Positions 36,312 through 53,767 of a stretch of DNA of 58,963 nucleotides are shown piece after piece. Location: the IMG/VR virus record IMGVR_UViG_3300024264_002160, positions 1 through 58,963 of that record, one strand, 5' to 3'. Made by a program: the position numbers and the translations under genes. The stretch comes from a virus. The notes beneath the pieces were generated by a model. The model did no database searches. It was not told the DNA's origin and worked only from the letters and a program-made list of their open reading frames with translations. The number at the start of each line of letters is the position of its first letter. The stretch's first letter is position 1.

Positions 36312-37270
36312 TGATGGACGATTTAACCCTGCGTGAACTACAAACTGAAATGGCGGTTACAACACATGAACTATTAGACCGTTACGAAATACTGTATCCA
36401 CAAATAGATGAGCTTGCTGATCTAAGACGTTCAGTTATTGATCAAGATTTAAGTAGTATATTCAGACTACTGCCCAATCATGTATCAGGCGATATTGAAG
36501 AACTACGCAAAGCAGTACTAGAACAAAATTTACACAGCATATTTAGATTAGTCGATGATGAAGATTTACGTAAATTAATATTAGAAGACAACACATGGAA
36601 ACTTTGGCCTATACTAGACAGTTATGTAGATACACAATTTACTAGTGCGTTTAAAAGTTTCTTTATAAACAATACAGTTATTGACACTGACTGTTTTAGT
36701 AGAGGACAACTACAAAGCAAACAATGGTTAGTAACTGAACTAGGAAACCTAGATGTCCAACTAGGCACAGTATTCCTGTGCGCTGGATGGTACGCTACAC
36801 TTGCTACAATGTTATTTGAAAGCGACATTAAAGTAGATAAAGTTAGATCTTTCGACATTGATCCTACTTGTGTAGACATTGCTGAAACATTCAACAAGCC
36901 GTGGTTTATGGAACAATGGCGATTCAAAAGTATTACACAAGATATAATGGATATAGATTATAACGAACATATGTGGCAGTTCTGGAGTAATGCCAATAAT
37001 CGAATGAGCTATCCAATCACGGACAGTCCTGATACAATTATAAATACAAGTTGTGAACACATTGAAAACTTTGCAGAATGGTATGCTAAGATACCAGATG
37101 GTAAACTAGTAATACTACAAAGTAATAACTTTTTTGATGTCCAGGAGCATATTAACTGTGTTAAAGACATTACTGAGTTTAGCAATATGGCACCTATGTC
37201 AAATACATTATACGCAGGCGATTTAGACTTGCCCAAATACAAAAGGTTTATGTTAATTGGATATAAGTGA
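36311..37270 (+). CDS. SAM-methyltransferase-like protein (FSRGQ family), copy 2
   Basis: 319 residues. The ATG overlaps the previous stop by one base (TAATG); a second ATG three bases on is equally possible. It shares with copy 1 the blocks FSRGQLQSKQWLVTEL, FLCAGWYATLATMLFE, SFDIDPTCVDIAE, TIINTSCEH and KRFMLIG. Its N-terminal 90 residues differ: they contain leucine-rich repeats of R-x-x-(V/I)-x-(D/E)-(Q/D)-x-L-x-S-I-F-R-L that look helical. The opening DLTLRELQTE recurs in the next small gene. Confidence 0.6.
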   Translation: MMDDLTLRELQTEMAVTTHELLDRYEILYPQIDELADLRRSVIDQDLSSIFRLLPNHVSGDIEELRKAVLEQNLHSIFRLVDDEDLRKLILEDNTWKLWPILDSYVDTQFTSAFKSFFINNTVIDTDCFSRGQLQSKQWLVTELGNLDVQLGTVFLCAGWYATLATMLFESDIKVDKVRSFDIDPTCVDIAETFNKPWFMEQWRFKSITQDIMDIDYNEHMWQFWSNANNRMSYPITDSPDTIINTSCEHIENFAEWYAKIPDGKLVILQSNNFFDVQEHINCVKDITEFSNMAPMSNTLYAGDLDLPKYKRFMLIGYK

Positions 37271-37478
37271 TCTAAGTGTACGACAACTGCAAACTGAAAG
37301 CGCAAGAGCTTTGAGTACAATGCAAGCCACCAATAACAACATTTACAAGTTTAATAAATTGGCGCACCACGATAGTCAAAACTGGTATAAGGCTGTCATT
37401 GAATGGTATGTAAATACATATGGTGATTTACCTAGCAGAGTCGGACCAGGTAAAGATGTAGAACTGATACTTAAATGA
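37257..37478 (+). CDS. Small protein sharing the N-terminal module of its upstream neighbour
   Basis: 73 residues from TTG 37257, overlapping the previous stop by 14 bases and the next ATG by four. Residues 5-14 (DLSVRQLQTE) closely match the N-terminus of the 36311 protein (DLTLRELQTE), which supports the TTG start. The rest contains WYKAVIEWYVNTYGDLPSR, a short helical stretch. It may be a stand-alone copy of a docking or oligomerisation module, or a remnant of a third methyltransferase-like gene. Function unknown. Confidence 0.5.
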   Translation: MDISDLSVRQLQTESARALSTMQATNNNIYKFNKLAHHDSQNWYKAVIEWYVNTYGDLPSRVGPGKDVELILK

Positions 37479-42501: not shown

Positions 42502-43817
42502 ATATAAACGAAGACAATTTCTGTGTTGTACCGTTTGTACAGCTCAATACTAGAGGTAAAGGCGATGCTAGAGTTTGTTGTAGTATTGAAGGTATTGATT
42601 ATGGCATACCCAAAGAGCTTGCTCTAGAGGAAATAAATGACGACACTTATAGTAGTGACACAGATGTTTATAATCTCAGCAAAGACAAAATAGAAGATTT
42701 ATGGAACGGAAAATTTATGAAAAATTTCCGTATGAGAATGCTCAGTGGTGAACGTATTAGTAACTGTGAGTTTTGTTTCAGAATGGAAAACAGCGGCTTT
42801 GGGAGTAAGCGTACTGGTAAAAACAAACGCTTCTTGGAAAAAGCAAAACCACATTTACTCAAGTATTGGGAAGCAAACGGTCATGTAGATATAATGCCAC
42901 AGTGGTGGGAAGTAAGACTTAGTACAAAGTGTAATCTAAGTTGTGTGATGTGTAGTCCAAATCTTAGCAGTATGATGTACAAAGAATACAGTAAGTGGGG
43001 CGATACTATGACCAATCAAATGCAAGGTAGTTTAGATATTGCCAAGCGTAGTGGACAAGAGTATCTCAGCCAAAGTGAGTTCTTTAGAGAACAAATTATG
43101 ACTAACTTACAACACGTATTGTTTATGGAGTTCAGAGGTGGCGAAGTATTTGCTGATAGACACAGTATAAACTTTATGTGGGAAATAGCAAACACAGAAT
43201 ATGCTAAAAACATCAGCCTTGACATCAGTACTAATGCAACACTAATAACACCTGAGATAGTTGATTTACTAAATCATTTTAAAGGTGGGCTACTACGTTT
43301 TAGTATTGATGCTGGGCAAGAAAAAGACGAATTAATACGTTATCACACAGACTGGAATAGTGTAATAAGCAGTATTGAAAACTCAAATAGTTTACATGAT
43401 GAATGGGAAATGGTTACACAAACTTGTTTACAAGCACTTAATTGTGTAGGCTTGGTGCCTATGTTGGAATACTTTGATAATATGTGTGAACGTACAAGTA
43501 ACCAACGCTTTCATTTAGGATTTACTAGTGTACGTGGTAAAGAATGGATGCGGCATGAACTAGTACCGTTGGAATATAGACAACAAGAGATTGAAGATTT
43601 AGAAAACTTTATTGATAATAGTTGGATGTGTAATCGCAGTAAGAGTAAAAACAGAGAAACTAAAACTGTACAAGGGTTAATAAAAGCACTAAGTGCGCCC
43701 ACTAGAGAAGACGATAATTTAAATAATAAAGCTCGAGAATATTATTTAAGATTAAACAAATTAAGAAATGTAGACTATTGGACTACATTCCCTCACTTGG
43801 AGTATTTAAATGAATAA
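42498..43817 (+). CDS. Radical SAM protein, N-terminal twitch type
   Basis: 439 residues, ATGA overlap with the previous gene. Twitch cysteines are C9 (CVVPF), C27/C28, C90 and C93. Radical SAM motif C145-x3-C149-x2-C152 followed by SPNLSSMM, where the signature tryptophan is lost. The GGE motif is RGGEV (GGEV 214-217). The barrel segment SIDAGQEKDELIRYH is one of the most divergent, which hints at a different substrate. Confidence 0.92.
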   Translation: MNINEDNFCVVPFVQLNTRGKGDARVCCSIEGIDYGIPKELALEEINDDTYSSDTDVYNLSKDKIEDLWNGKFMKNFRMRMLSGERISNCEFCFRMENSGFGSKRTGKNKRFLEKAKPHLLKYWEANGHVDIMPQWWEVRLSTKCNLSCVMCSPNLSSMMYKEYSKWGDTMTNQMQGSLDIAKRSGQEYLSQSEFFREQIMTNLQHVLFMEFRGGEVFADRHSINFMWEIANTEYAKNISLDISTNATLITPEIVDLLNHFKGGLLRFSIDAGQEKDELIRYHTDWNSVISSIENSNSLHDEWEMVTQTCLQALNCVGLVPMLEYFDNMCERTSNQRFHLGFTSVRGKEWMRHELVPLEYRQQEIEDLENFIDNSWMCNRSKSKNRETKTVQGLIKALSAPTREDDNLNNKAREYYLRLNKLRNVDYWTTFPHLEYLNE

Positions 43818-45186
43818 CACACTATGTCCTGTTCCATGGATGAGTACAAGCCTTAGAGCAAATGGCGATATTAGAGTCTGCTGTCAAGCACAGCATGGAC
43901 CTACTGGCGGTATACTTCGAGATGAAAATGGCAAAGAATATAATGCCAGAAATGCAGACCTACAAATGGTTCGAAACAGCGACCTCAGCAAAGAAATACG
44001 CAAGTATATGATGGAAGGACGTTGGCATCCAGAATGTGTACGTTGTCAGACTGAAGTTGAAAGCGGAATGAATGCTCGTATAGAATATGAAAATAAAATA
44101 TGGATAGAGCGTGGCGAATTTAGTTGGGAAGACTTGTTGAGTAAAACTGAACAAGATGGTACTATACGTGCAGATGAAATCAACTGTAGCTTCTACGATG
44201 TACGCTTTGGTAACTTGTGTAATTTAAAATGTCGTATGTGCGGTCCCACTGACAGCAGCATGTGGTATGAAGATCAAGTTAAACTATGGCAAGACAGTTA
44301 CAAAGACAGTCATGGTAAAGTAAAATTAATTAAAAATGATAAAGGCAAGTATGAGCCTGAAGAGGACTTGTACAATTGGCACACCAGTGATCACTATTGG
44401 GTACAAATGGACGACAACATTGAACAGATACGTAAACTGTATATTGTTGGCGGCGAGCCATTGATGATTGACAGACACTATGAATTTTTACAAAAGTGTG
44501 TGGATCAAGGTCATGCTAAAAACATTATTGTAGAGTACAACACAAACCTTACCAATATACCACAACGTGCTTGGGATGTCTGGAAACATTTTAAACAAGT
44601 AAACATTGGTGCTAGTATTGACGGAGTAGGTGATATAAACTACTATATGCGTCCTCCTAGTAGGTTTGATAAAATATATGAAAATCTAATTAAAGTAAGT
44701 CAAGCTGAAGGCAACTTCAAAGTATGGATCGCGGCAACTATCAATGTGTTTAATGTACTACACTTTCCAGAGTTTATGGAATGGATATTGTTAAACAAGA
44801 TACCACGTGTAAATGACGATGACTGGCGTCCTATTATTACACCACATCCACTGCATGGTCCTAAGTTTTACAATATTAGAATGTTACCAGGTTGGGCAAA
44901 AGACCATATCAAACAAAAGTATGAAGACTACAAACCACGACTGTTAAAAATAATTGATGAAAGCGACTTTACAGAAGAACGTAAAGCCAGTAGTAGAAAA
45001 GAAGCAGTTGCACTTCTGGATCAATATGTAAAGTATATGTACGCCAAAGACTTCAGTGAACACTTGCCACAGTTTTGGTATGCGACACGTAGATTAGACA
45101 AGATACGTAATCATAGTATTGAAACATATATTCCAGAGCTGTACGAATTGTTAAAGGACACTGAAGTTGTTTCTGAATCTGAATGA
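43810..45186 (+). CDS. Radical SAM protein, N-terminal twitch type
   Basis: 458 residues, overlapping the previous gene by eight bases. Twitch cysteines are C6 (CPVPW), C24/C25, C76 and C79. Radical SAM motif C137-x3-C141-x2-C144 followed by GPTDSSMW; GGEP 214-217. SIDGVGDINYYMRPP keeps DGVGD. The 3' end overlaps the next gene by 20 bases. Confidence 0.92.
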   Translation: MNNTLCPVPWMSTSLRANGDIRVCCQAQHGPTGGILRDENGKEYNARNADLQMVRNSDLSKEIRKYMMEGRWHPECVRCQTEVESGMNARIEYENKIWIERGEFSWEDLLSKTEQDGTIRADEINCSFYDVRFGNLCNLKCRMCGPTDSSMWYEDQVKLWQDSYKDSHGKVKLIKNDKGKYEPEEDLYNWHTSDHYWVQMDDNIEQIRKLYIVGGEPLMIDRHYEFLQKCVDQGHAKNIIVEYNTNLTNIPQRAWDVWKHFKQVNIGASIDGVGDINYYMRPPSRFDKIYENLIKVSQAEGNFKVWIAATINVFNVLHFPEFMEWILLNKIPRVNDDDWRPIITPHPLHGPKFYNIRMLPGWAKDHIKQKYEDYKPRLLKIIDESDFTEERKASSRKEAVALLDQYVKYMYAKDFSEHLPQFWYATRRLDKIRNHSIETYIPELYELLKDTEVVSESE

Positions 45187-46225
45187 GATTAAAATAATCC
45201 AAATGGATCACACCAGTAGGTGCCATCTAGCATGTCCGCAGTGTGCTAGATTCCACGGCAGTCAGACTGAACTTAATCCACACATGCCTATTGCTGATAC
45301 AACTGTAGACGACTATAAAATTATACTGGAACCATTTGATCGTGATAGTGTAAAACTATTTCACTGTGGTAACTTTGGCGACAGTCTTAGTAGCCCTACA
45401 CTAGATGATTGTATTGACTATAGTATAAGTCAAGGCGTTAAAGAATTTAAAATGGCAGTAAATGGTAGTGCCAGAACTTCTGCTTGGTGGCGTGACTTGG
45501 CACAAAAAAGTGATCGTATTACTGTAAACTTTAGTATAGACGGACTAGCTGATACCAATCATTTATATAGAGTAAACAGTAACTTTGATAAAATAATGAC
45601 CAACGCACAAGCATTTATAGATGCTGGCGGCAACGCCCGTTGGTACTTTATTGAGTTTGAACACAACTATCATCAGATAGAAACTGCAAAACAAATGGCA
45701 ACAGATATGGGATTCAAACAGTTTAATGCCAAGTATACAGGAAGATTTGCAGAACAACAACAAAAACAAATCGAAACTCGTAAAGGAAGTGTTGTAAAAG
45801 ATAAAAAAGACAATCACAATCAAAGCGATATGAACACTATTAAAAAAACTTACGATAGTTTTGACCAGTATATAGAGCAAACTCCTATTACGTGTAAATA
45901 CAAACAAGAAAACAGTGTGTTTATTGATATGAATATGCGTTTATGGCCATGTACTTGGATGGGAGCACCAGCATATTTTGGACCACACAATCCTCAACGT
46001 CAGAGTTTTGATAATATCTATAACTTATACGGACAAGATTTTAACGATATGAGAACACACGGCTGGGACGTACTACAACACGACTTCTTTGCTAAGTATT
46101 TAGATAGAAGTTGGCATAACGCAGACGAAAAATATAAAAGAATATATACCTGTGGTAGAACATGCGGCGACAAATTTGAATTTAGCAGTGGGTATGGTAA
46201 AAATACAAAGAGAGTAAATCTATGA
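45167..46225 (+). CDS. Radical SAM protein, GN(x)GD type
   Basis: 352 residues from TTG 45167, with AAGGA at 45154-45158 upstream. The first ATG (45203) would cut off the first beta strand of the barrel, so TTG is preferred. Radical SAM motif C19-x3-C23-x2-C26; HCGNFGDS (GNFGD at 69-73). SIDGLADTNHLYRVN and a Lys/Gln-rich insert (about 205-230) match 38415. C-terminal cysteines in PITCKYKQ, LWPCTWMG and YTCGRTCG form the probable auxiliary site, with CC reduced to CT. Confidence 0.88.
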   Translation: MFLNLNEIKIIQMDHTSRCHLACPQCARFHGSQTELNPHMPIADTTVDDYKIILEPFDRDSVKLFHCGNFGDSLSSPTLDDCIDYSISQGVKEFKMAVNGSARTSAWWRDLAQKSDRITVNFSIDGLADTNHLYRVNSNFDKIMTNAQAFIDAGGNARWYFIEFEHNYHQIETAKQMATDMGFKQFNAKYTGRFAEQQQKQIETRKGSVVKDKKDNHNQSDMNTIKKTYDSFDQYIEQTPITCKYKQENSVFIDMNMRLWPCTWMGAPAYFGPHNPQRQSFDNIYNLYGQDFNDMRTHGWDVLQHDFFAKYLDRSWHNADEKYKRIYTCGRTCGDKFEFSSGYGKNTKRVNL

Positions 46226-46878
46226 TAATAGAAAATAGTCAGGATATAATTGAATTTAATTTGCCAGATGACTTTAATAAAATAGGCATTAAACTGAGTG
46301 GTGGAGCAGACAGCGCAATAGTACTTTATATGTTGTGTAAGTATATCACAGAAACTAATAAAGAATGTGAAATTATTCCAATGACAGTTTGTCATGCGGG
46401 CAAGGCGTATCAGCTACAGTTTGCAACCAAAGTGATTTTCTTTATGGAAGAAACATTTCCTGGTATTAAATTTGGTATACATCCAACTGGTGTAAATTAT
46501 CATGGTGAAAGTTATGATTTGGTACAGCAAAAAGTAGTAGACAGCGCATATCGCAACAACCAAATAAACTGTCATTATGTGGGAATTACTAAAAATCCTC
46601 CCAGTGATGTAATGATAGCATTTGATCAAAATGGTCCTGTTGATGATAGAAATTCTGACACTGTTAAGCCAACTGTACGAGGCGGGCATGTGTTTTTACC
46701 TTTAATTAACATAGACAAACAGGGTGTAAGAGAACTGTATGAAAAATTTAATCTTATGGACACACTGTTTCCACTAACAAGAAGTTGCGAAGTATTCACC
46801 GACGACTTTAGCAAGCATTGTGAAACAGACTGTTGGTTTTGTTTAGAACGATATTGGGGGTTTGGTAGATATGAATGA
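46222..46878 (+). CDS. PP-loop ATPase, QueC-like
   Basis: 218 residues, ATGA overlap with the previous gene. The PP-loop SGGADS at 26-31 follows a hydrophobic strand, as in N-type ATP pyrophosphatases. The C-terminus has C189, C200, C204 and C207 in a C-x10-C-x3-C-x2-C pattern, like the zinc site of 7-cyano-7-deazaguanine synthase (QueC). No other queuosine or deazaguanine gene was recognised in the window, so the exact reaction (nitrile formation, amidation or adenylation of a cluster product) is open. Confidence 0.7.
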   Translation: MIIENSQDIIEFNLPDDFNKIGIKLSGGADSAIVLYMLCKYITETNKECEIIPMTVCHAGKAYQLQFATKVIFFMEETFPGIKFGIHPTGVNYHGESYDLVQQKVVDSAYRNNQINCHYVGITKNPPSDVMIAFDQNGPVDDRNSDTVKPTVRGGHVFLPLINIDKQGVRELYEKFNLMDTLFPLTRSCEVFTDDFSKHCETDCWFCLERYWGFGRYE

Positions 46879-48049
46879 TATAATATGTCCATTGGTATAC
46901 AACGGTATTGCTACAGATCCCAGTGGAGGAGTAAGACCTTGCTGTGTGTTTGATCAGAAATACAACTACAGAGGCAGCGTAGCAGAATACAAAGACAGTA
47001 AATTATGGAAAGAAATAGAACAAGACTTTCTAAATGGAAAGTACCATGTTGGATGTCATCACTGTGAAAGACAAGATTCTGCCGGAAGTAGTAGTAAGCG
47101 TACCAGAGAGGTTCGAAACTATCTAGAAAAATACAAACGTGACACAGTTGATTTAGAACATTTAAAAAGTATTGGATATGATTTAATTGATCTGAGGCTC
47201 AGTAACAAATGTAATCTAAGTTGTATTACCTGTAACCCCAAAAGCAGTAGTATGATATTTGATGAAACAAAAAAGCACTACGATGATACAATGTTTCACT
47301 ACAAGAACATATATGATTTAACCAAACACAGGGACTTAACCAATCCTTACAGTGATAAAAATATAGAAGATCTACTAAGTTGCATGAACAAAACCAGTAG
47401 ATTATATTTTACAGGCGGCGAACCCAGTGTTGTTAAAGGTGTACTTAAAATACTACAGAGATTGATTGACGAAGGTCTCAATGAAGATGTAGAAATAGAA
47501 TTTAACAGTAACTTTCAAACAACCAATCCCAAGTTTATAGAGCTGTTGAGTCATTTTCCTAGTGGACTTATGATGCCCAGCATTGACGGTGTTGGAGTGA
47601 GAGCAGAATATATACGCTACCCTAGTAATTGGGATATAGTTCATAAAAATATGAAGTACTTCACTGAACGATGTCCGGGTTGGCGTTTTCATGTAGCGCC
47701 TACTGTGAGTATACTAAGTTTGTTTTATCTAGACGAACTGTTAGAATATTGCTATAGAAATAATTATTTTTTAACTTTTACTAATATGTTATGGGGTCCG
47801 ACGTATTTAAATATCAGCAACATACCAGAAAAATACAAAGAGATAGCGATGAATAAATTAAGTAATATGGAAAAGCATATGAAAGTAAGAGGCTTAAAAA
47901 ATATAGAAACTTATCTTTACAGTGCAGATACAGATCTAGAACTGTTATCAAATGCTAGAAGCAATTTAAATAGACTTGACAAAATAAGAAAAAACAGCTA
48001 TCATGATAGCCTGCCAATACTAAAGGAGATGTTCGACGAATGCTTGTAA
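46871..48049 (+). CDS. Radical SAM protein, N-terminal twitch type
   Basis: 392 residues from ATG 46871, which has GGGGG ten bases upstream and overlaps the previous stop by eight bases. Twitch cysteines are C6 (CPLVY), C24/C25, C62 and C65. Radical SAM motif C114-x3-C118-x2-C121 followed by NPKSSSMI; GGEP 182-185. SIDGVGVRAEYIRYP is well kept. Its last ten bases overlap the mini-SDR gene, the same arrangement as 50902/52110. Confidence 0.92.
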   Translation: MNDIICPLVYNGIATDPSGGVRPCCVFDQKYNYRGSVAEYKDSKLWKEIEQDFLNGKYHVGCHHCERQDSAGSSSKRTREVRNYLEKYKRDTVDLEHLKSIGYDLIDLRLSNKCNLSCITCNPKSSSMIFDETKKHYDDTMFHYKNIYDLTKHRDLTNPYSDKNIEDLLSCMNKTSRLYFTGGEPSVVKGVLKILQRLIDEGLNEDVEIEFNSNFQTTNPKFIELLSHFPSGLMMPSIDGVGVRAEYIRYPSNWDIVHKNMKYFTERCPGWRFHVAPTVSILSLFYLDELLEYCYRNNYFLTFTNMLWGPTYLNISNIPEKYKEIAMNKLSNMEKHMKVRGLKNIETYLYSADTDLELLSNARSNLNRLDKIRKNSYHDSLPILKEMFDECL

Positions 48050-48594
48050 TAGGAAATAAAGAATATGGATTAGCAGAAAGTATTGCTAAACTTTATCCAC
48101 ATGCAGAATACTACAGTAGATCCAGTGGATACAACATGGGAAAGCGTGATGTTAGACAGCAAGCGAGTGGAAAATCACTAGACCACGACGTGGTAATACT
48201 ATGTAGCGCATTAGGTGACTTTAGTCAAGTGTTACTTGCTGAAGCTATAGCAAAAGAATGGGTTAAAAATAATCACCAAGGTTATCTAATAGCCGTTGGA
48301 AGTAGTGCAGACACACCTGTTAAAGGATCCCAATGGATTTACCCTGTTGAAAAACGTGCATTGCGAGCATATATGAGACAACTCAGTCAAGCATGCAGTA
48401 GTGATACTCCACCCGCTTGCAAAACAACTTACATTGCTCCGGGCAATATGCATACTCCTAGACAAGATGAAAAAATGCCCGACACTCTGAAGTTAGACAC
48501 AGACTATGTTGCTGGTGTAATTAAATGGTTAATAGATCAACCTCACAATGTTAATATCAGTGAGCTATGTTTGGATCGTATTCAAAAAGTGTAA
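48040..48594 (+). CDS. Mini short-chain dehydrogenase/reductase-like protein, copy 1
   Basis: 184 residues, well below the usual 250 of the SDR family. The N-terminal strand-turn is VIGNKEYGLAESIA (GxxxxGLA, replacing TGxxxGIG). Ser is at 88/89 in AVGSSAD, and Y101-x3-K105 lies in WIYPVEKRALRAY, the classical Ser/Tyr/Lys site. It shares these positions exactly with the 52110 protein. It overlaps the preceding radical SAM gene by ten bases and the convergent gene by 13. Likely an NAD(P)-dependent oxidoreductase acting on the product of the adjacent enzyme (inference). Confidence 0.65.
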   Translation: MLVIGNKEYGLAESIAKLYPHAEYYSRSSGYNMGKRDVRQQASGKSLDHDVVILCSALGDFSQVLLAEAIAKEWVKNNHQGYLIAVGSSADTPVKGSQWIYPVEKRALRAYMRQLSQACSSDTPPACKTTYIAPGNMHTPRQDEKMPDTLKLDTDYVAGVIKWLIDQPHNVNISELCLDRIQKV

Positions 48595-49748
48595 TAGGGA
48601 TAAACTGTTTTAAAATCCTGCGATCTAGACTTATCCCAAAAAGCAGTGTGTGATTTAAACTTATCTAAGATATTGGATTTATCTTCACTGTACATGTATG
48701 TTAAAATATAGTCACATAGATTTTTAATAGTTTCATTTTTGTAGTTGTAGTTGTGATATTTTTGTTTTATAATATCTTTTTGACTCTGTGGTAACACTGT
48801 TAACCCCAAATACAATGGAAACGTTAGGTGTGTAGGGTTTAACATAATATTTCTATCATCCAACCATTCAAGTGTTTCAGGCAAATGATAAGCATTATAG
48901 ATTGTAACCGTGGGTCTTGCTACCACAGTCATTCCAACAGTGTCTGCTATTTCTACATATTTGTCAATATTTTTCAGTGCGCTTTCGTGATTGGTCAAGT
49001 GTCGTTGATATTCATTTTCTTCTTTAATAATACTATCTAAACTAACAGCAAGTTCAATATGGTCAAACTCTTTCCATATATCTACAATTTTCTTCTTGGG
49101 CCACACTGTACAATTGGTACTATAGTTTAATCTTATGTTTTTAGCATAGCCCTTTTCCACAGCATGTTCTATTAGTTTCCAATGATCAGGAATAATAAGG
49201 GGCTCGCCGCCTGTAAATTTAATATATTTCATATCCTTTAGATGAGGGTATATACTATCTAAATTTGCTTTTGTATGTTTTATCTTAGAGCCAGGTTCAC
49301 TGCCAATAGCCTTTCCAACAAACGTTTTGCCATGATATTCTTGTTCTTCATCAAACAGTTTAAAACTATATCGACTGTCGCACATTCTACACATAAGATT
49401 ACAGTCGTTACTTAGGCTAAGTTCCAAGTATTCTAACTTATAATTTTCAGTATCAACAGTTTTAGCGCCAACTTTTGGATGTTCGTTGAGACGCATACGT
49501 AAACTTTTTTTATTGTTGTCTTCTTCTTCATAGCAACGTGTACATCCTTCCAATCTTTCTCCAGCAAGTATACGCTTGCGAAGATCGTTTTGAAAGTCAC
49601 TGTCGAATATTTCCTGGATACTATAATTATCCAGTGTATGATCTTTGGGACGATAGTCTTCTAAGAATCTACAACAGGGCTTTACTCTACCGGTACCGTC
49701 TACCATCTGGTGATTCCATAATACTGAACAAAAGGTTTTATTTTCCAT
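48582..49748 (-). CDS. Radical SAM protein, N-terminal twitch type (only minus-strand member of this type)
   Basis: 388 residues from ATG 49748; an ATG six codons upstream (49766) lies ahead of the TATAAATA. Twitch cysteines are C7 (CSVLW), C25/C26, C69 and C72. Radical SAM motif C116-x3-C120-x2-C123 followed by DSRYSFKL, without the SSxW signature; GGEP 180-183. The barrel segment SLDSIIKEENEYQRHL lacks DGxG. It stands alone on the minus strand between two plus-strand genes, so it has its own promoter. Confidence 0.92.
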   Translation of the reverse strand: MENKTFCSVLWNHQMVDGTGRVKPCCRFLEDYRPKDHTLDNYSIQEIFDSDFQNDLRKRILAGERLEGCTRCYEEEDNNKKSLRMRLNEHPKVGAKTVDTENYKLEYLELSLSNDCNLMCRMCDSRYSFKLFDEEQEYHGKTFVGKAIGSEPGSKIKHTKANLDSIYPHLKDMKYIKFTGGEPLIIPDHWKLIEHAVEKGYAKNIRLNYSTNCTVWPKKKIVDIWKEFDHIELAVSLDSIIKEENEYQRHLTNHESALKNIDKYVEIADTVGMTVVARPTVTIYNAYHLPETLEWLDDRNIMLNPTHLTFPLYLGLTVLPQSQKDIIKQKYHNYNYKNETIKNLCDYILTYMYSEDKSNILDKFKSHTAFWDKSRSQDFKTVYPYYTF

Positions 49749-49753
49749 AAATA
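49746..49753 (+). promoter_or_regulatory. Late-promoter-like CATAAATA, half of a divergent palindrome
   Basis: One mismatch from the octamer. Predicted start near 49759; ribosome binding site GGAG at 49781-49784; start TTG at 49790. With the minus-strand element it forms a perfect inverted repeat, ATAAATA-TATTTAT (49747-49760). Confidence 0.55.
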
Positions 49754-49761
49754 TATTTATA
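49754..49761 (-). promoter_or_regulatory. T4-type late promoter TATAAATA (minus strand)
   Basis: Exact octamer on the minus strand. By T4 spacing the transcript would begin at 49748, the A of the ATG of the minus-strand radical SAM gene, that is without a leader. Confidence 0.55.
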
Positions 49762-49789
49762 TACATATATAATTACAAAAGGAGCAATC

Positions 49790-50914
49790 TTGGAACCCGT
49801 AGCAAGTTATTTTAAATGGAACCCAACTGGCGCATTTAGCGTTGACTGGTATATAGGTAAACGTTGTAACTTTAGTTGTAGTTACTGTGTGGATTATCTA
49901 CATGATTATACAAGTCCACACGTGCCATTGGAAAATATGAAACAGTTAGTAGATGTAATTTATGAAAAAGAAGGCTCGAATGTACTGTGGAGTTTAACCG
50001 GTGGTGAGCCAACAATTAATCCAAAGTTCTTGGATCTATGTGCGTATATACGCAGTAGAGGCAGACGTTATATCAGTGTTACAACAAATGGTTCACGCAC
50101 ACTACAGTATCACAAAGACATGTTTGATCTAGTAGATGGTATTACACAAAGTTTTCACTTTGAGTTTATGGAAGATCGTATAGATGAATATATAGAAAAG
50201 TTTATTGAATTAGAAAAATATAGATTAGAATTAAACAGCAAGTTAGCTAAAGGTGAACCTAAGAAAACACTTATACTTAGATTTATGGTCGAAACTGGAC
50301 AGTTAGATAACGTAGATCGTATGGATCGAGCATACAGAGCTGCTGGTATTACTAATATAGAACATAGATATATCAGACCGCCTGGTAAAGACAAAGGCAA
50401 AGGTATGCAACCAGAAGAGAAGTATAAATTTAAAGATAAAAAAGACCCTAACCAAATTACTGATAAAGCAAAAGTAGAAAAAATAGAATCTAAAGAAGCA
50501 AGTTATTATGGACATAACGAACAAGGTGCTATTAAAGAAATATATCGTAGTACAGCAGACCCTGACAAACGTAAATTAAAGTTTTGGTTTCAGGACAGCA
50601 ACGGCGAATACCACGAAGAAGATTATCACTACAATGAACTAAACTACGATAAAAAGAATAATTACGAAGGCTGGATATGCTGGGCAGGTATGAAACATTT
50701 AAAAGTTACACCCACTGGCGACATATACATTGGCAGTTGTCATGTTGGTGGTAAGCGTGGTAACGTATATGAAAAAGATAGTATTGATTTGCCAACTGAG
50801 CCTATACGTTGTAGCAAATGGCGTTGTACAGACAATACAGATTTAAAAGTACCCAAGATCAAAGATTGGGATCATTACCATTTAGTCAAGGACATGATAG
50901 AATGGAAACCATAG
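49790..50914 (+). CDS. Radical SAM protein, short GGEPT type
   Basis: 374 residues from TTG 49790, preceded by GGAG. Radical SAM motif C26-x3-C30-x2-C33; GGEPT 71-75. A charged Lys/Glu-rich insert at about residues 195-245 (GKDKGKGMQPEEKYKFKDKK) lies between barrel and tail. C-terminal cysteines in GWICWAG, IGSCHVGG, RCSKWRC give the probable auxiliary site; the G-W-x-C-x-A-G motif is shared with 37475 and 52655. Preceded by a divergent late-like promoter. Confidence 0.9.
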   Translation: MEPVASYFKWNPTGAFSVDWYIGKRCNFSCSYCVDYLHDYTSPHVPLENMKQLVDVIYEKEGSNVLWSLTGGEPTINPKFLDLCAYIRSRGRRYISVTTNGSRTLQYHKDMFDLVDGITQSFHFEFMEDRIDEYIEKFIELEKYRLELNSKLAKGEPKKTLILRFMVETGQLDNVDRMDRAYRAAGITNIEHRYIRPPGKDKGKGMQPEEKYKFKDKKDPNQITDKAKVEKIESKEASYYGHNEQGAIKEIYRSTADPDKRKLKFWFQDSNGEYHEEDYHYNELNYDKKNNYEGWICWAGMKHLKVTPTGDIYIGSCHVGGKRGNVYEKDSIDLPTEPIRCSKWRCTDNTDLKVPKIKDWDHYHLVKDMIEWKP

Positions 50915-52113
50915 CCAATCCACCCACACTGTGTAGTTTAATGAGCTACAATATTAGAGTGGATCATATACGTAGAAGAATAGCAAGATGTCCCAAGCAA
51001 GAAGGTGTTGAATTAAGTGCTGAATACTTGAGAACACACGGTGCTGACGTGTTTAATCATCAGCACTTTGCACTTGCACTAGAAGATATGAAATTGAATC
51101 AAACAGCTAATATATGTAGAATGTGTCATCCAAGCTACAGAGACAGTAAAAATGAATGGCAAACAACTGAATGGAGTGTGAATAATTTTAAAAATTTAAA
51201 AATAAACACAACACCGGCAGCCATATGTGATTATATTTTCAGTGATGTGTGCAACATGACCTGTATGTATTGTGACGCTCATCACAGTAATCTGTGGGCT
51301 AAATTAACAAATAACCCTCAGCCAATGAATCAAGAATGGGATAGCGCAGCAGAAGACTGTTTAGTTGATTACTTAAATCGTTATATTATAAATCAAGTGC
51401 CTCAATTTAGATTACAGATGCTAGGCGGTGAACCGTTATTGAATTGGAATAAACTAGAAAAGTTTTTGTTACGTATTACTACAGTGTTTGAACACACTGA
51501 TACTAGGCTGACCATTGCCGTTATCAGTAACTTAAATGTACTACAAAAGAATGTAGAAAATTTTGTTAAATTTAGTGAGCAACACAATATTCAAACAGAG
51601 ATACAAGGCAGTATAGACACTGTAGGAGATACAGCAGAAAACATTAGAACAGGTTTAAACTTTGATCTGTTTGTAAGCAACATGGATATATTTGCTAGTC
51701 GTAGTCAAATACAGTGCAGTATCAATGCTAGTGTTAATCTATTAAGTGTGAGTACAATGCCCCAACATTATCAATACTGGACTGATTATGCAGTGCGTCA
51801 TCAACGCACACTTGGCAAAGATTTTTTGTTTGGTAACAATACTGTTACTAATCCTAAGAGCATGAGTATTACAATATTACCTAAATCATACATAGATTAT
51901 ATAGAAAAGTCAAGAGAAATATTAAATAAAAGTTTTAGCGATAACTCATTTAAACAAATACTGAATCGAAGGTTTGATATATTAGCTAATAATATTGGTA
52001 TTGACAGAAATGAAAAAAATTTACAAAATGCTAAACAGTTTTATACACAGCAAGGACTACTCAAAGGTATCGATTACTTTGATGTATTTCCAGAATTAAA
52101 TAGTATATTATGA
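50902..52113 (+). CDS. Radical SAM protein, N-terminal twitch type (divergent)
   Basis: 403 residues from ATG 50902, with AAGG about ten bases upstream. An open extension back to 50818 overlaps the previous gene and lacks family features. Candidate twitch cysteines are C11, C30, C72 and C75: the usual CC pair is a single cysteine. Radical SAM motif C117-x3-C121-x2-C124 followed by DAHHSNLW; GGEP 175-178. SIDTVGDTAENIRTG is recognisable. It is followed, with a four-base overlap, by a mini-SDR gene. Confidence 0.88.
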   Translation: METIANPPTLCSLMSYNIRVDHIRRRIARCPKQEGVELSAEYLRTHGADVFNHQHFALALEDMKLNQTANICRMCHPSYRDSKNEWQTTEWSVNNFKNLKINTTPAAICDYIFSDVCNMTCMYCDAHHSNLWAKLTNNPQPMNQEWDSAAEDCLVDYLNRYIINQVPQFRLQMLGGEPLLNWNKLEKFLLRITTVFEHTDTRLTIAVISNLNVLQKNVENFVKFSEQHNIQTEIQGSIDTVGDTAENIRTGLNFDLFVSNMDIFASRSQIQCSINASVNLLSVSTMPQHYQYWTDYAVRHQRTLGKDFLFGNNTVTNPKSMSITILPKSYIDYIEKSREILNKSFSDNSFKQILNRRFDILANNIGIDRNEKNLQNAKQFYTQQGLLKGIDYFDVFPELNSIL

Positions 52114-52658
52114 TTATAACAGGTAACCCACAAAAAGGTTTAGCACATAGTCTACATAAGATATATCCTGACGCAGTATATTGTAGTCGAGCTAGTGGAC
52201 ATGAACTTACTAGTAACAAAGGTATGGACGAATTTGCGCAGTTAGCCGCACAACATGATACTATTATTATTAATAGCGCACTATGGCGCTTTCATCAAAC
52301 TGTACTACTGGATTTAGTATACAAGGCGTGTAGAACCGCCAACAATGACGCACATATTGTATGTATAGGCAGTACCACAGACAGAACTAGCAAAGGCACG
52401 GCATGGCTATATAATGCTGAAAAGAAAGCACTCAGAGATTATTGTAATAGTTTAGCATTGGTGGGAGTGTGGCACAGTGGCCCTAGAGTAAGTTTAATTA
52501 GTTTTGGTACGCTGAGTAATAATCAAGAGAAACACCCTGACAGAGTATGTATGGATATAGATGAAGCAGCTTCATATATCAAGTGGTTGACAGAGCTTCC
52601 TAAGCATGTTACAATAAATGAAATAAGCATGGATCCTATGCAAAAGAGAGTAGTATGA
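52110..52658 (+). CDS. Mini short-chain dehydrogenase/reductase-like protein, copy 2
   Basis: 182 residues, paralogue of the 48040 protein. It has the strand-turn IITGNPQKGLAHSL, Ser 88 in CIGSTTD, and Y101-x3-K105 in WLYNAEKKALRDY. Short ATGA-type overlaps on both sides show translational coupling to a radical SAM gene upstream and another downstream. The canonical TG start of the SDR glycine motif is better kept here than in copy 1. Likely redox partner step in the tailoring pathway (inference). Confidence 0.65.
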   Translation: MIITGNPQKGLAHSLHKIYPDAVYCSRASGHELTSNKGMDEFAQLAAQHDTIIINSALWRFHQTVLLDLVYKACRTANNDAHIVCIGSTTDRTSKGTAWLYNAEKKALRDYCNSLALVGVWHSGPRVSLISFGTLSNNQEKHPDRVCMDIDEAASYIKWLTELPKHVTINEISMDPMQKRVV

Positions 52659-53767
52659 CAGAAGATTTAAAATGGAGCAATTATGACTTTACCAAAATAC
52701 CGTTTGACGACATTGTTAGTGTTGGTCAGCGTACTTTGTTGTACCGTGATCTATTCACTGTCAGCTGGCTGCTCGGAAGATTCTGTAACTACAAATGCTC
52801 CTACTGTTGGCCTTATGCCCGTAGTGACCGTAAAGACCATCGTCCTACCGAACTATGTGTCAAAACAATTGACGAAATAAAGAGGCAAGCACGTGAAAAC
52901 GGATTTAATAGCTTTCATTTTTCTCTTAGTGGTGGTGAGCCTACTTTTCATCCTGGGTACCTGGACATTCTACAACATCTGGCTGATGACATAGACAACA
53001 CAAACTATACTAGCGTTCACATGACATCAAACTGTAGTCGACCAATGAAATGGTTTGAGGACTATGTAGAACGAGTAAAACCTTTCCATAGAGCTAGTAT
53101 AACAGCTAGTTTACACACAGAACACTTAAATACACTTGACAAGCTACAGGAGTTTGCAAACAAACTCATATTATGTCAGGAGCATGATGTACAGGTCACC
53201 ATCAATATGGTTATGGTTCCGGAATGGTTCGAAAGGGATTGGGAAAATGCCTTGTTCTTCCACGAGCAAGGAATCAACGTCACACTCAAGCCACAAAGTG
53301 ACCCAACGGCGTCAAGAGTCGTGGAAGGTTATACGGACGAGATGTTACAGCGATTGTATAACGGAATGCCGCAAATGGCGTATACTGAAACAAAACGTAA
53401 ATGGGCAGCACGCCCAAGGCCTAGTTTCGAACTGCCGCCAGAAACACTAGGCGAAAACGACAAGAGCGTGCCTTGGCATATGCAAGTAGAGTTTCGGGAC
53501 AGTACTGGTAAGAAATGGTACATGGATCAAGCAGAACGCTTTAATGCTTTTAACTTTAATGAGTTTAAAGGCTGGAGTTGTAATGCTGGTTACAGTGGCA
53601 TTATTATACGTGAACCAGATGGCAGTGTCAAGCGTAGTTATAGTTGTGCTGATGTACCATTAGGTAATATTGAGACAGGATTTAAACTGTTTGATAAGCC
53701 TAGAGTTTGTATTAGCGATAATTGTGTAAGTAGTGCTGACAGTAAAATACCCAAGAGAAAAATATGA
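52655..53767 (+). CDS. Radical SAM protein, short GGEPT type (GC-richer)
   Basis: 370 residues. It has an N-terminal extension of about 35 residues, the radical SAM motif C44-x3-C48-x2-C51 followed by WPYARSDRK, and GGEPT at 93-97. C-terminal cysteines in GWSCNAGYSG, YSCADVPLG and VCISDNCVSS are the probable auxiliary site. Base composition stands out: 60 of 120 bases at 53221-53340 are G/C, against 12 of 60 at 51901-51960 in the gene before last. It resembles a radical SAM protein that I recall from other marine phages, so recent transfer is plausible. Confidence 0.9.
   Translation: MTEDLKWSNYDFTKIPFDDIVSVGQRTLLYRDLFTVSWLLGRFCNYKCSYCWPYARSDRKDHRPTELCVKTIDEIKRQARENGFNSFHFSLSGGEPTFHPGYLDILQHLADDIDNTNYTSVHMTSNCSRPMKWFEDYVERVKPFHRASITASLHTEHLNTLDKLQEFANKLILCQEHDVQVTINMVMVPEWFERDWENALFFHEQGINVTLKPQSDPTASRVVEGYTDEMLQRLYNGMPQMAYTETKRKWAARPRPSFELPPETLGENDKSVPWHMQVEFRDSTGKKWYMDQAERFNAFNFNEFKGWSCNAGYSGIIIREPDGSVKRSYSCADVPLGNIETGFKLFDKPRVCISDNCVSSADSKIPKRKI

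Follow-up and report, generated by a model that had tools for sequence, protein, structure and literature searches.

What two unusually small dehydrogenases are doing in a viral gene island made up largely of radical S-adenosylmethionine (SAM) enzymes is the question raised by IMG/VR virus record IMGVR_UViG_3300024264_002160, whose 58,963 bases were analysed as a whole and are called the window below. Two genes in this window, SDR48 and SDR52, encode compact short-chain dehydrogenases (SDRs), and each overlaps the end of a radical SAM (rSAM) gene, TWI46 and TWI50, respectively. The first-pass annotation regarded the two pairs as copies of one duplicated two-enzyme unit, in which radical chemistry and NAD(P)-linked redox act on the same intermediate. 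We found that the link between compact SDRs and rSAM genes is real and conserved in viruses and bacteria. The most persistent partners are rS45 for SDR48 and rS52 for SDR52 instead of the rSAMs immediately upstream, with which they had been paired, and the duplicated unit did not hold up. The SDR fold, the active site and the conserved association with rSAM genes are the parts of the earlier interpretation that stood.

Fold and active site of the compact dehydrogenases

The two proteins comprise 184 (SDR48) and 182 (SDR52) amino acids, in line with the approximately 183 residues given earlier and far below the approximately 250 residues of classical SDRs. Ser88, Tyr101 and Lys105 occupy the same positions in both, again as described before. 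In addition to this S-Y-K set, Gly5, Ser26, Arg27 and Gln63 coincide in SDR48 and SDR52, and Gly5, Ser26, Gln63, Ser88, Tyr101 and Lys105 are invariant over 47 aligned relatives; the invariance of S-Y-K argues for catalysis by these proteins.

The AlphaFold model showed a confident SDR fold with a predicted local distance difference test score (pLDDT) of 93 and a predicted template modelling score of 0.90. Its secondary structure elements follow the order strand 2-4, helix 10-18, strand 23-25, helix 36-46 and strand 51-54, in which the alphaC-beta3 segment of the full classical alpha/beta core is absent. Foldseek returned 1278 matches in the PDB at E ≤ 0.001, and structure alignment with VIA-align 2 gave Z scores of 17-18 to classical SDRs. 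Among the fold matches from the two programs were L-threonate dehydrogenase (9x6i), farnesol dehydrogenase (7w61), YdfG (3asu/3asv) and the compact Lin1944 (3d7l). When PDB sequences were searched with a profile, S-Y-K fell on the S-Y-K residues of YdfG and farnesol dehydrogenase, which also share with the compact SDRs a 'NINEL'-like motif in the C-terminal part. The Rossmann-type fold on which the earlier proposal depended was thus recovered in the small proteins.

Both proteins gave weak matches to Pfam adh_short and to NCBIfam SDR families, and SDR52 has 144 viral relatives; taken together with the confident SDR fold, these results indicate that both are real genes. With their shortened fold, they mark out a clade of SDRs, and neither protein could be assigned to a PHROG family with confidence. 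Ser26-Arg27 follows strand beta2, which we take to be the classical place for an NADP-preferring arginine. SDR48 and SDR52 are compact (about 180-190 residues), classical-type SDRs that probably depend on NADP(H).

Origins and radical SAM partners of the two genes

The genes of the region are listed below by coordinates, strand and description.

43810..45186, plus strand: TWI43, radical SAM enzyme with N-terminal twitch (N_Twi_rSAM; NF033640, 370 bits)
45167..46225, plus strand: rS45, radical SAM enzyme with a C-terminal four-cysteine twitch-like domain, the most persistent partner of SDR48
46222..46878, plus strand: QueC-like PP-loop ATPase between rS45 and TWI46 (PF06508 QueC, 19.6 bits, under the cut-off)
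46871..48049, plus strand: TWI46, radical SAM enzyme with N-terminal twitch (NF033640, 299 bits), 10-base overlap with SDR48
48040..48594, plus strand: SDR48, compact SDR of 184 amino acids with S88, Y101 and K105, aaaggag upstream
48582..49766, minus strand: TWI48r, N_Twi radical SAM enzyme between the two SDR genes (NF033640, 312 bits)
49790..50914, plus strand: rS49, radical SAM enzyme upstream of TWI50 (PF04055, 48.6 bits)
50902..52113, plus strand: TWI50, divergent twitch-type radical SAM enzyme (NF033640, 137.7 bits, under the cut-off), 4-base overlap with SDR52
52110..52658, plus strand: SDR52, compact SDR of 182 amino acids with S88, Y101 and K105, alphaC-beta3 element missing
52655..53767, plus strand: rS52, highly conserved radical SAM enzyme with a Cys-rich C-terminus, persistent partner of SDR52

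The rSAM/SDR overlaps of 10 and 4 bases agree with those given in the first-pass annotation, and TWI46 may start at a TTG at 46862 or at the ATG at 46871. The cluster motif CxxxCxxC is present in rS45, TWI46, TWI50 and rS52. Both upstream rSAMs had been called twitch-type. This applies without reservation to TWI46, which exceeds the curated cut-off of 170 bits for NF033640 (N_Twi_rSAM, NCBIfam); TWI50 stays below this cut-off, but keeps, like TWI46, CxxxCxxC and four N-terminal cysteines (C6, C24, C62 and C65 in our numbering) that do not vary across an alignment of 19 rows.

Gene order, overlaps and active-site spacing are alike in both places, in favour of an ancestral unit of twitch-rSAM and mini-SDR that was duplicated within the phage and whose copies catalyse the same two-step reaction. 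TWI46 and TWI50, however, match each other with 14 bits and 20% identity, compared to 147 bits between TWI46 and TWI23, and are unrelated beyond the superfamily. SDR48 and SDR52 are 34-35% identical. In the maximum-likelihood tree, SDR48 groups with genes of the loci L004, L006, L007 and L009 and of the bacterial locus L225 (support 100/99), and SDR52 belongs to a separate clade of 58 rows (support 96/93). The nearest relatives of each are found in other viruses or bacteria and not in the other protein, and the phylogeny shows the two SDRs to be, as judged by their sequences, of separate origin. No SDR52-type gene was seen in six contigs with SDR48 relatives, which are fragments. In the SDR48-carrying relatives L005 and L008, rS49 is followed directly by rS52 after a gap of 30 bases, without TWI50 and SDR52 at the syntenic place, and thus TWI50 plus SDR52 are an optional insert there. 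The low TWI46-TWI50 score and the separate SDR clades contradict a duplicated two-gene cassette, and we regard the duplication as the least probable of the explanations considered, with next to no chance of being right.

SDR48-type genes were found in 17 viral loci, mostly in the order TWI43, rS45, QueC-like gene, TWI46 and SDR48, where the QueC-like gene is an optional member that only some loci have. Orthologues of TWI43 are located shortly upstream of rS45/SDR48 in most of these loci and also alongside bacterial mini-SDRs (L213, L214, L219 and L230). TWI46 lies directly upstream of SDR48 in 11 of the 17; L245 and L250 are without TWI46 at this place, and rS45 directly precedes SDR48 there with a 4-base overlap. 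Counted over 32 virus loci, the immediate upstream neighbour of SDR52 comes from 14 different rSAM families, whereas rS52 is located downstream of SDR52 in 38 of the 39 loci where both are visible, within three genes in 29 of them. In a test of 15 viral contigs that carry SDR52 and are 75 kb or longer, every one contained rS52, and about 25 of 61 distinct rS52 loci have an SDR within the fetched flanks. Genes similar to TWI50 (140-146 bits) occupy the first or second position before SDR52 in L060, L070, L085 and L089, which is a weaker conserved link. The rS52 protein is 80-93% identical, plus one 100% near-copy of the window virus, among the best 80 of at least 594 viral stretches. Cultured phages (50,697 records searched) contained no relatives of SDR48, SDR52 or rS52, and TWI41 and TWI23 gave matches of only about 23% there, mainly in Vibrio phages. 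Being conserved, yet absent from these records, rS52 is a good marker gene for an uncultivated phage group.

When 84,980 species genomes were scanned for the pattern of the SDR52 alignment, three relatives came up, one on a phage-like contig of a gammaproteobacterial metagenome-assembled genome (MAG) and two in Bdellovibrionota. Profile searches of two Bdellovibrionota classes found members in 12 of 144 and 6 of 129 genomes. In Gammaproteobacteria, it was 1 of 185 genomes, the match being the phage-like contig just mentioned, and this group was dismissed as the source of the SDRs. A 108-kb contig in gammaproteobacterial MAG MED685 (L090, NZGL01000008.1) carries a phage-type rSAM island and is probably a binned phage.

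The bacterial set consisted of 21 SDR genes, one near-duplicate species being left out. In 14 of these 21 cases, the compact SDR is directly beside an rSAM gene, mostly on the same strand and nearly touching or overlapping it, in Bdellovibrionota genomes of 1.5-4.5 Mb with 14-54 Radical_SAM matches each, or about 1% of genes (nominal binomial p 1e-15 to 1e-19, ignoring clustering and shared ancestry). Without L215 and L219, which are short contigs and maybe misbinned phage, the adjacency is 10 of 17. The neighbour is rS45-like in L213, L219, L225 and L226, rS38-like in L230 and L231, and rS24-like in L223; in L215, rS52 (532 bits) pairs with the SDR with a 4-base overlap. As in viruses, rS45 precedes SDR48-clade genes in L225 and L226, of which L226 is a near-bare rS45-SDR pair among housekeeping-like genes. 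The sizes of the contigs carrying L225 (1.62 Mb) and L213 (0.94 Mb) indicate that these loci are chromosomal. The association of mini-SDRs and rSAMs expected by the first-pass annotation is therefore conserved, also on chromosomes with few rSAM genes; the rSAM upstream of SDR52 changes from locus to locus. In this way, the compact SDRs tie rSAMs of the phage islands (rS45 and rS52) to two-gene or small bacterial clusters, which are small enough for knock-out or expression tests. Two bacterial loci have other neighbours: in L218 (497-1727), only a few bases separate the compact SDR from a GTP cyclohydrolase I gene in front of it, and in L224 (9058-19001, Bdellovibrionota), it adjoins an AMP-binding ligase, a thioesterase and a polyketide synthase with an aminotransferase domain, which suggests small-molecule work.

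Possible role in the radical SAM island

In the window, 21 of 52 open reading frames (ORFs) encode rSAMs, 13 of them with an N-terminal twitch arrangement and one of the B12-binding type. They span positions 15193-53767, forming a densely packed island of about 39 kb that includes both compact SDR genes and lies downstream of a virion structural protein of 2658 amino acids, whose closest relatives with an annotation share about 27% identity with it and occur in large phages such as PA5oct. Large related viral contigs contain 5-21 N_Twi_rSAM matches each. With this composition, an rSAM beside any gene of the window is expected. A 73-aa ORF without PHROG match (37257-37478) recurs with 97-129 bits in eight or more other islands, where it is located just upstream of rSAM genes; it may be a small partner or substrate.

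In an alignment of 22 rS45 sequences, C19, C23 and C26 (the rSAM triad) and C243, C262, C329 and C333 are invariant, and the latter four C-terminal cysteines have a twitch-like arrangement. The AlphaFold model of rS45 (pLDDT 89) aligned with SuiB, BlsE and SkfB at Z 18 and also resembles BtrN, to a somewhat lesser degree; DesII and BlsE count among its best fold matches. Single-sequence searches with rS45 and TWI46 found no solved relatives, and profile searches gave generic rSAM matches and BtrN only. The twitch profile agrees over its N-terminal stretch with the twitch domain in BtrN, a cyclitol dehydrogenase. As to gene context, the window encodes a member of the UDP-glucose/GDP-mannose dehydrogenase family and a carbamoyltransferase, a carbamoyltransferase and an NDP-sugar epimerase directly follow the SDR48-clade gene in L244, and L225 has a gene resembling Glycos_transf_2 below the cut-off. 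The saccharide reading rests on this context. The genes near L244 (3288-7796) are like bacterial TctA/TctC transporters, so that this locus of the virus collection may be a piece of a host genome.

We propose that the compact SDRs act as reductases with NADP(H) as cofactor and assist rSAM enzymes that carry out tailoring in a saccharide or small-molecule pathway, an explanation for which we see about an even chance. SDR48 would serve a pathway with rS45 (plus TWI43/TWI46) and SDR52 one with rS52 plus upstream rSAMs that can replace each other, TWI50 being an example. The rSAM would generate a 5'-deoxyadenosyl radical that takes a hydrogen from a carbon of a polyol, sugar or amino sugar, and would thereby oxidise, dehydrate or epimerise that carbon. 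Using NADP(H), the SDR would interconvert C=O and CH-OH at this place, Tyr101 acting as acid/base with the help of Lys105, and Ser88 holding the carbonyl, in the manner in which AprD3 works for AprD4. Both enzymes would then act on the same intermediate, as the first-pass annotation had assumed. The product would decorate the virion, the host surface or a small molecule. We infer the cofactor, the direction of the reaction, the saccharide-type substrate and the destination of the product. In a wider and more doubtful version, which we consider possible but not favoured, a previously undescribed pathway of rSAMs and compact SDRs would pass between Bdellovibrionota and large uncultivated phages of aquatic origin; in the phages, 10-20 interchangeable auxiliary-cluster rSAMs would be grouped around a nearly invariant core (rS52, TWI41 and rS38), with the compact SDRs as reductive partners, and would yield a saccharide or small molecule that is variable and tailored by radical chemistry. 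Phages carrying twelve or more rSAM genes have been noticed before, and the compact SDRs give a handle on what those enzymes make.

Several observations weigh against our proposal. With regard to the SDRs themselves, the Gly-rich motif is non-canonical: compared to TGxxxGxG, the loop is longer and its last Gly is replaced by Ala (TGNxxxxGLA-type in SDR52, IGNxxxxGLA-type in SDR48; more distant phage members have TGHTxGIG), and the Asn that completes the conserved SDR tetrad was not located in the compact SDRs. With regard to adjacency, we counted the neighbours of 58 dereplicated phage SDR genes, of which 52 were same-strand cases. An rSAM is directly upstream in 36 of 52, compared to 143 of 230 at upstream positions 2-6 (p=0.43). 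Immediate upstream pairing is thus what island composition alone gives, and generic enrichment at this position was rejected; downstream, rSAMs are enriched (37 of 52 versus 59 of 189), largely owing to rS52. Furthermore, the genes of one SDR52 sub-clade (L036:6991-10319; also L028, L035, L039 and L043) have no rSAM as neighbour but are flanked by two genes of T4-like phages, one for a gp47-like nuclease and one for a gp46-like ATPase; three of four contigs of this type, which are fragments, had no rSAM match. In bacteria, no rSAM was found within two genes of the SDR in L216, L218, L220, L224, L227 and L229, all with flanks, and in L222. These data would fit mini-SDRs that are independent metabolic genes drifting through hypervariable islands dominated by rSAMs, their adjacency being without functional meaning: upstream adjacency is at background, the upstream partner of SDR52 keeps changing, some SDR52 genes sit among T4-like genes, and 7 of 21 bacterial members have no adjacent rSAM. 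Such passengers would, however, hardly be expected beside rSAMs as often as observed in Bdellovibrionota, even without the two short contigs, nor would the rS45-SDR48 order persist from viruses to bacteria, and we consider this explanation unlikely.

The fold of rS45 poses a different difficulty for a sugar substrate, as the peptide-modifying SPASM enzymes SuiB, SkfB and anSME match it as well as the sugar enzymes do. A peptide substrate is thus possible, and the fold does not choose between the two. The rSAMs could then mature a ribosomal peptide or neighbouring virion proteins, and the SDR could reduce a radical-formed keto or aldehyde group on the polypeptide. ChlB is also among the best fold matches of rS45, the N_Twi profile matches TigE (8vpo), SkfB and anSME, and the island follows the large virion structural protein. 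On the other hand, no RRE- or PqqD-like peptide-recognition domain was among the families reported, although no systematic search for one was made, the single conserved small ORF noticed (37257-37478) is about ten ORFs away from SDR48, and the islands contain sugar-type genes; we therefore judge peptide or protein tailoring to be improbable, to the same degree as drifting passenger genes. Pterin or 7-deazapurine chemistry, with the SDRs as pteridine-type reductases acting together with QueE-like rSAMs and the QueC-like gene, would account for the L218 arrangement, for the recurrence of QueC-like genes in the islands and for pteridine and sepiapterin reductases among the SDR fold matches. Only one GTP cyclohydrolase I neighbour was found, however, the QueC-like score is below the Pfam cut-off, and the rSAMs carry auxiliary-cluster domains, unlike QueE as generally known, which makes this chemistry very unlikely. 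Between these alternatives, it is the recurrence of the compact SDRs next to rSAMs in bacteria and the sugar-type gene context that speak for reductases of a saccharide or small-molecule pathway.

Comparison with known systems

No description of the compact SDRs was found in the open-access literature searched. A shortened SDR fold has a precedent in Lin1944 of Listeria innocua (PDB 3d7l, about 200 amino acids; Z 17.2, root-mean-square deviation 2.5, 166 aligned residues), which is 12% identical. To our knowledge, the Lin1944 group is without the usual active-site residues, whereas S-Y-K is invariant in the phage-type compact SDRs. The branch of YdfG and farnesol dehydrogenase (3asu, 3asv and 7w61) gave the best sequence-profile matches, with S-Y-K aligned and the 'NINEL'-like motif, but the phage SDRs are about 65 amino acids shorter, without alphaC-beta3 and with a modified Gly-rich loop. 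Of the rSAMs, TWI46 is a member of NF033640 and TWI50 remains below the cut-off; rS45 and rS52 differ from this family by having their auxiliary cysteines at the C-terminus.

Host-recognition islands of pelagimyophages carry radical SAM cassettes (PMC7029224), and a T4-like environmental genome has 12 radical SAM genes (PMC5332604). The window resembles these genomes of large marine myophages in its variable, rSAM-rich island next to tail genes, but has 21 rSAMs in 59 kb, and the parts of the two papers drawn on here do not describe compact SDRs or a link to Bdellovibrionota.

The closest functional parallel is AprD4/AprD3 of the apramycin pathway, a radical SAM diol dehydratase with an NADPH-dependent reductase (PMC5461906), which shows that combining an rSAM and a reductase is workable chemistry. 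The likeness drawn here is one of function: an NAD(P)-type reductase and an rSAM recurrently occur as a pair, and the sugar-tailoring logic is shared; in contrast to AprD4/AprD3, the phage has several rSAMs per SDR. We see in the phage genes a new form of a familiar concept, the rSAM enzyme with a reductase as partner, and the observation behind it is real and conserved.

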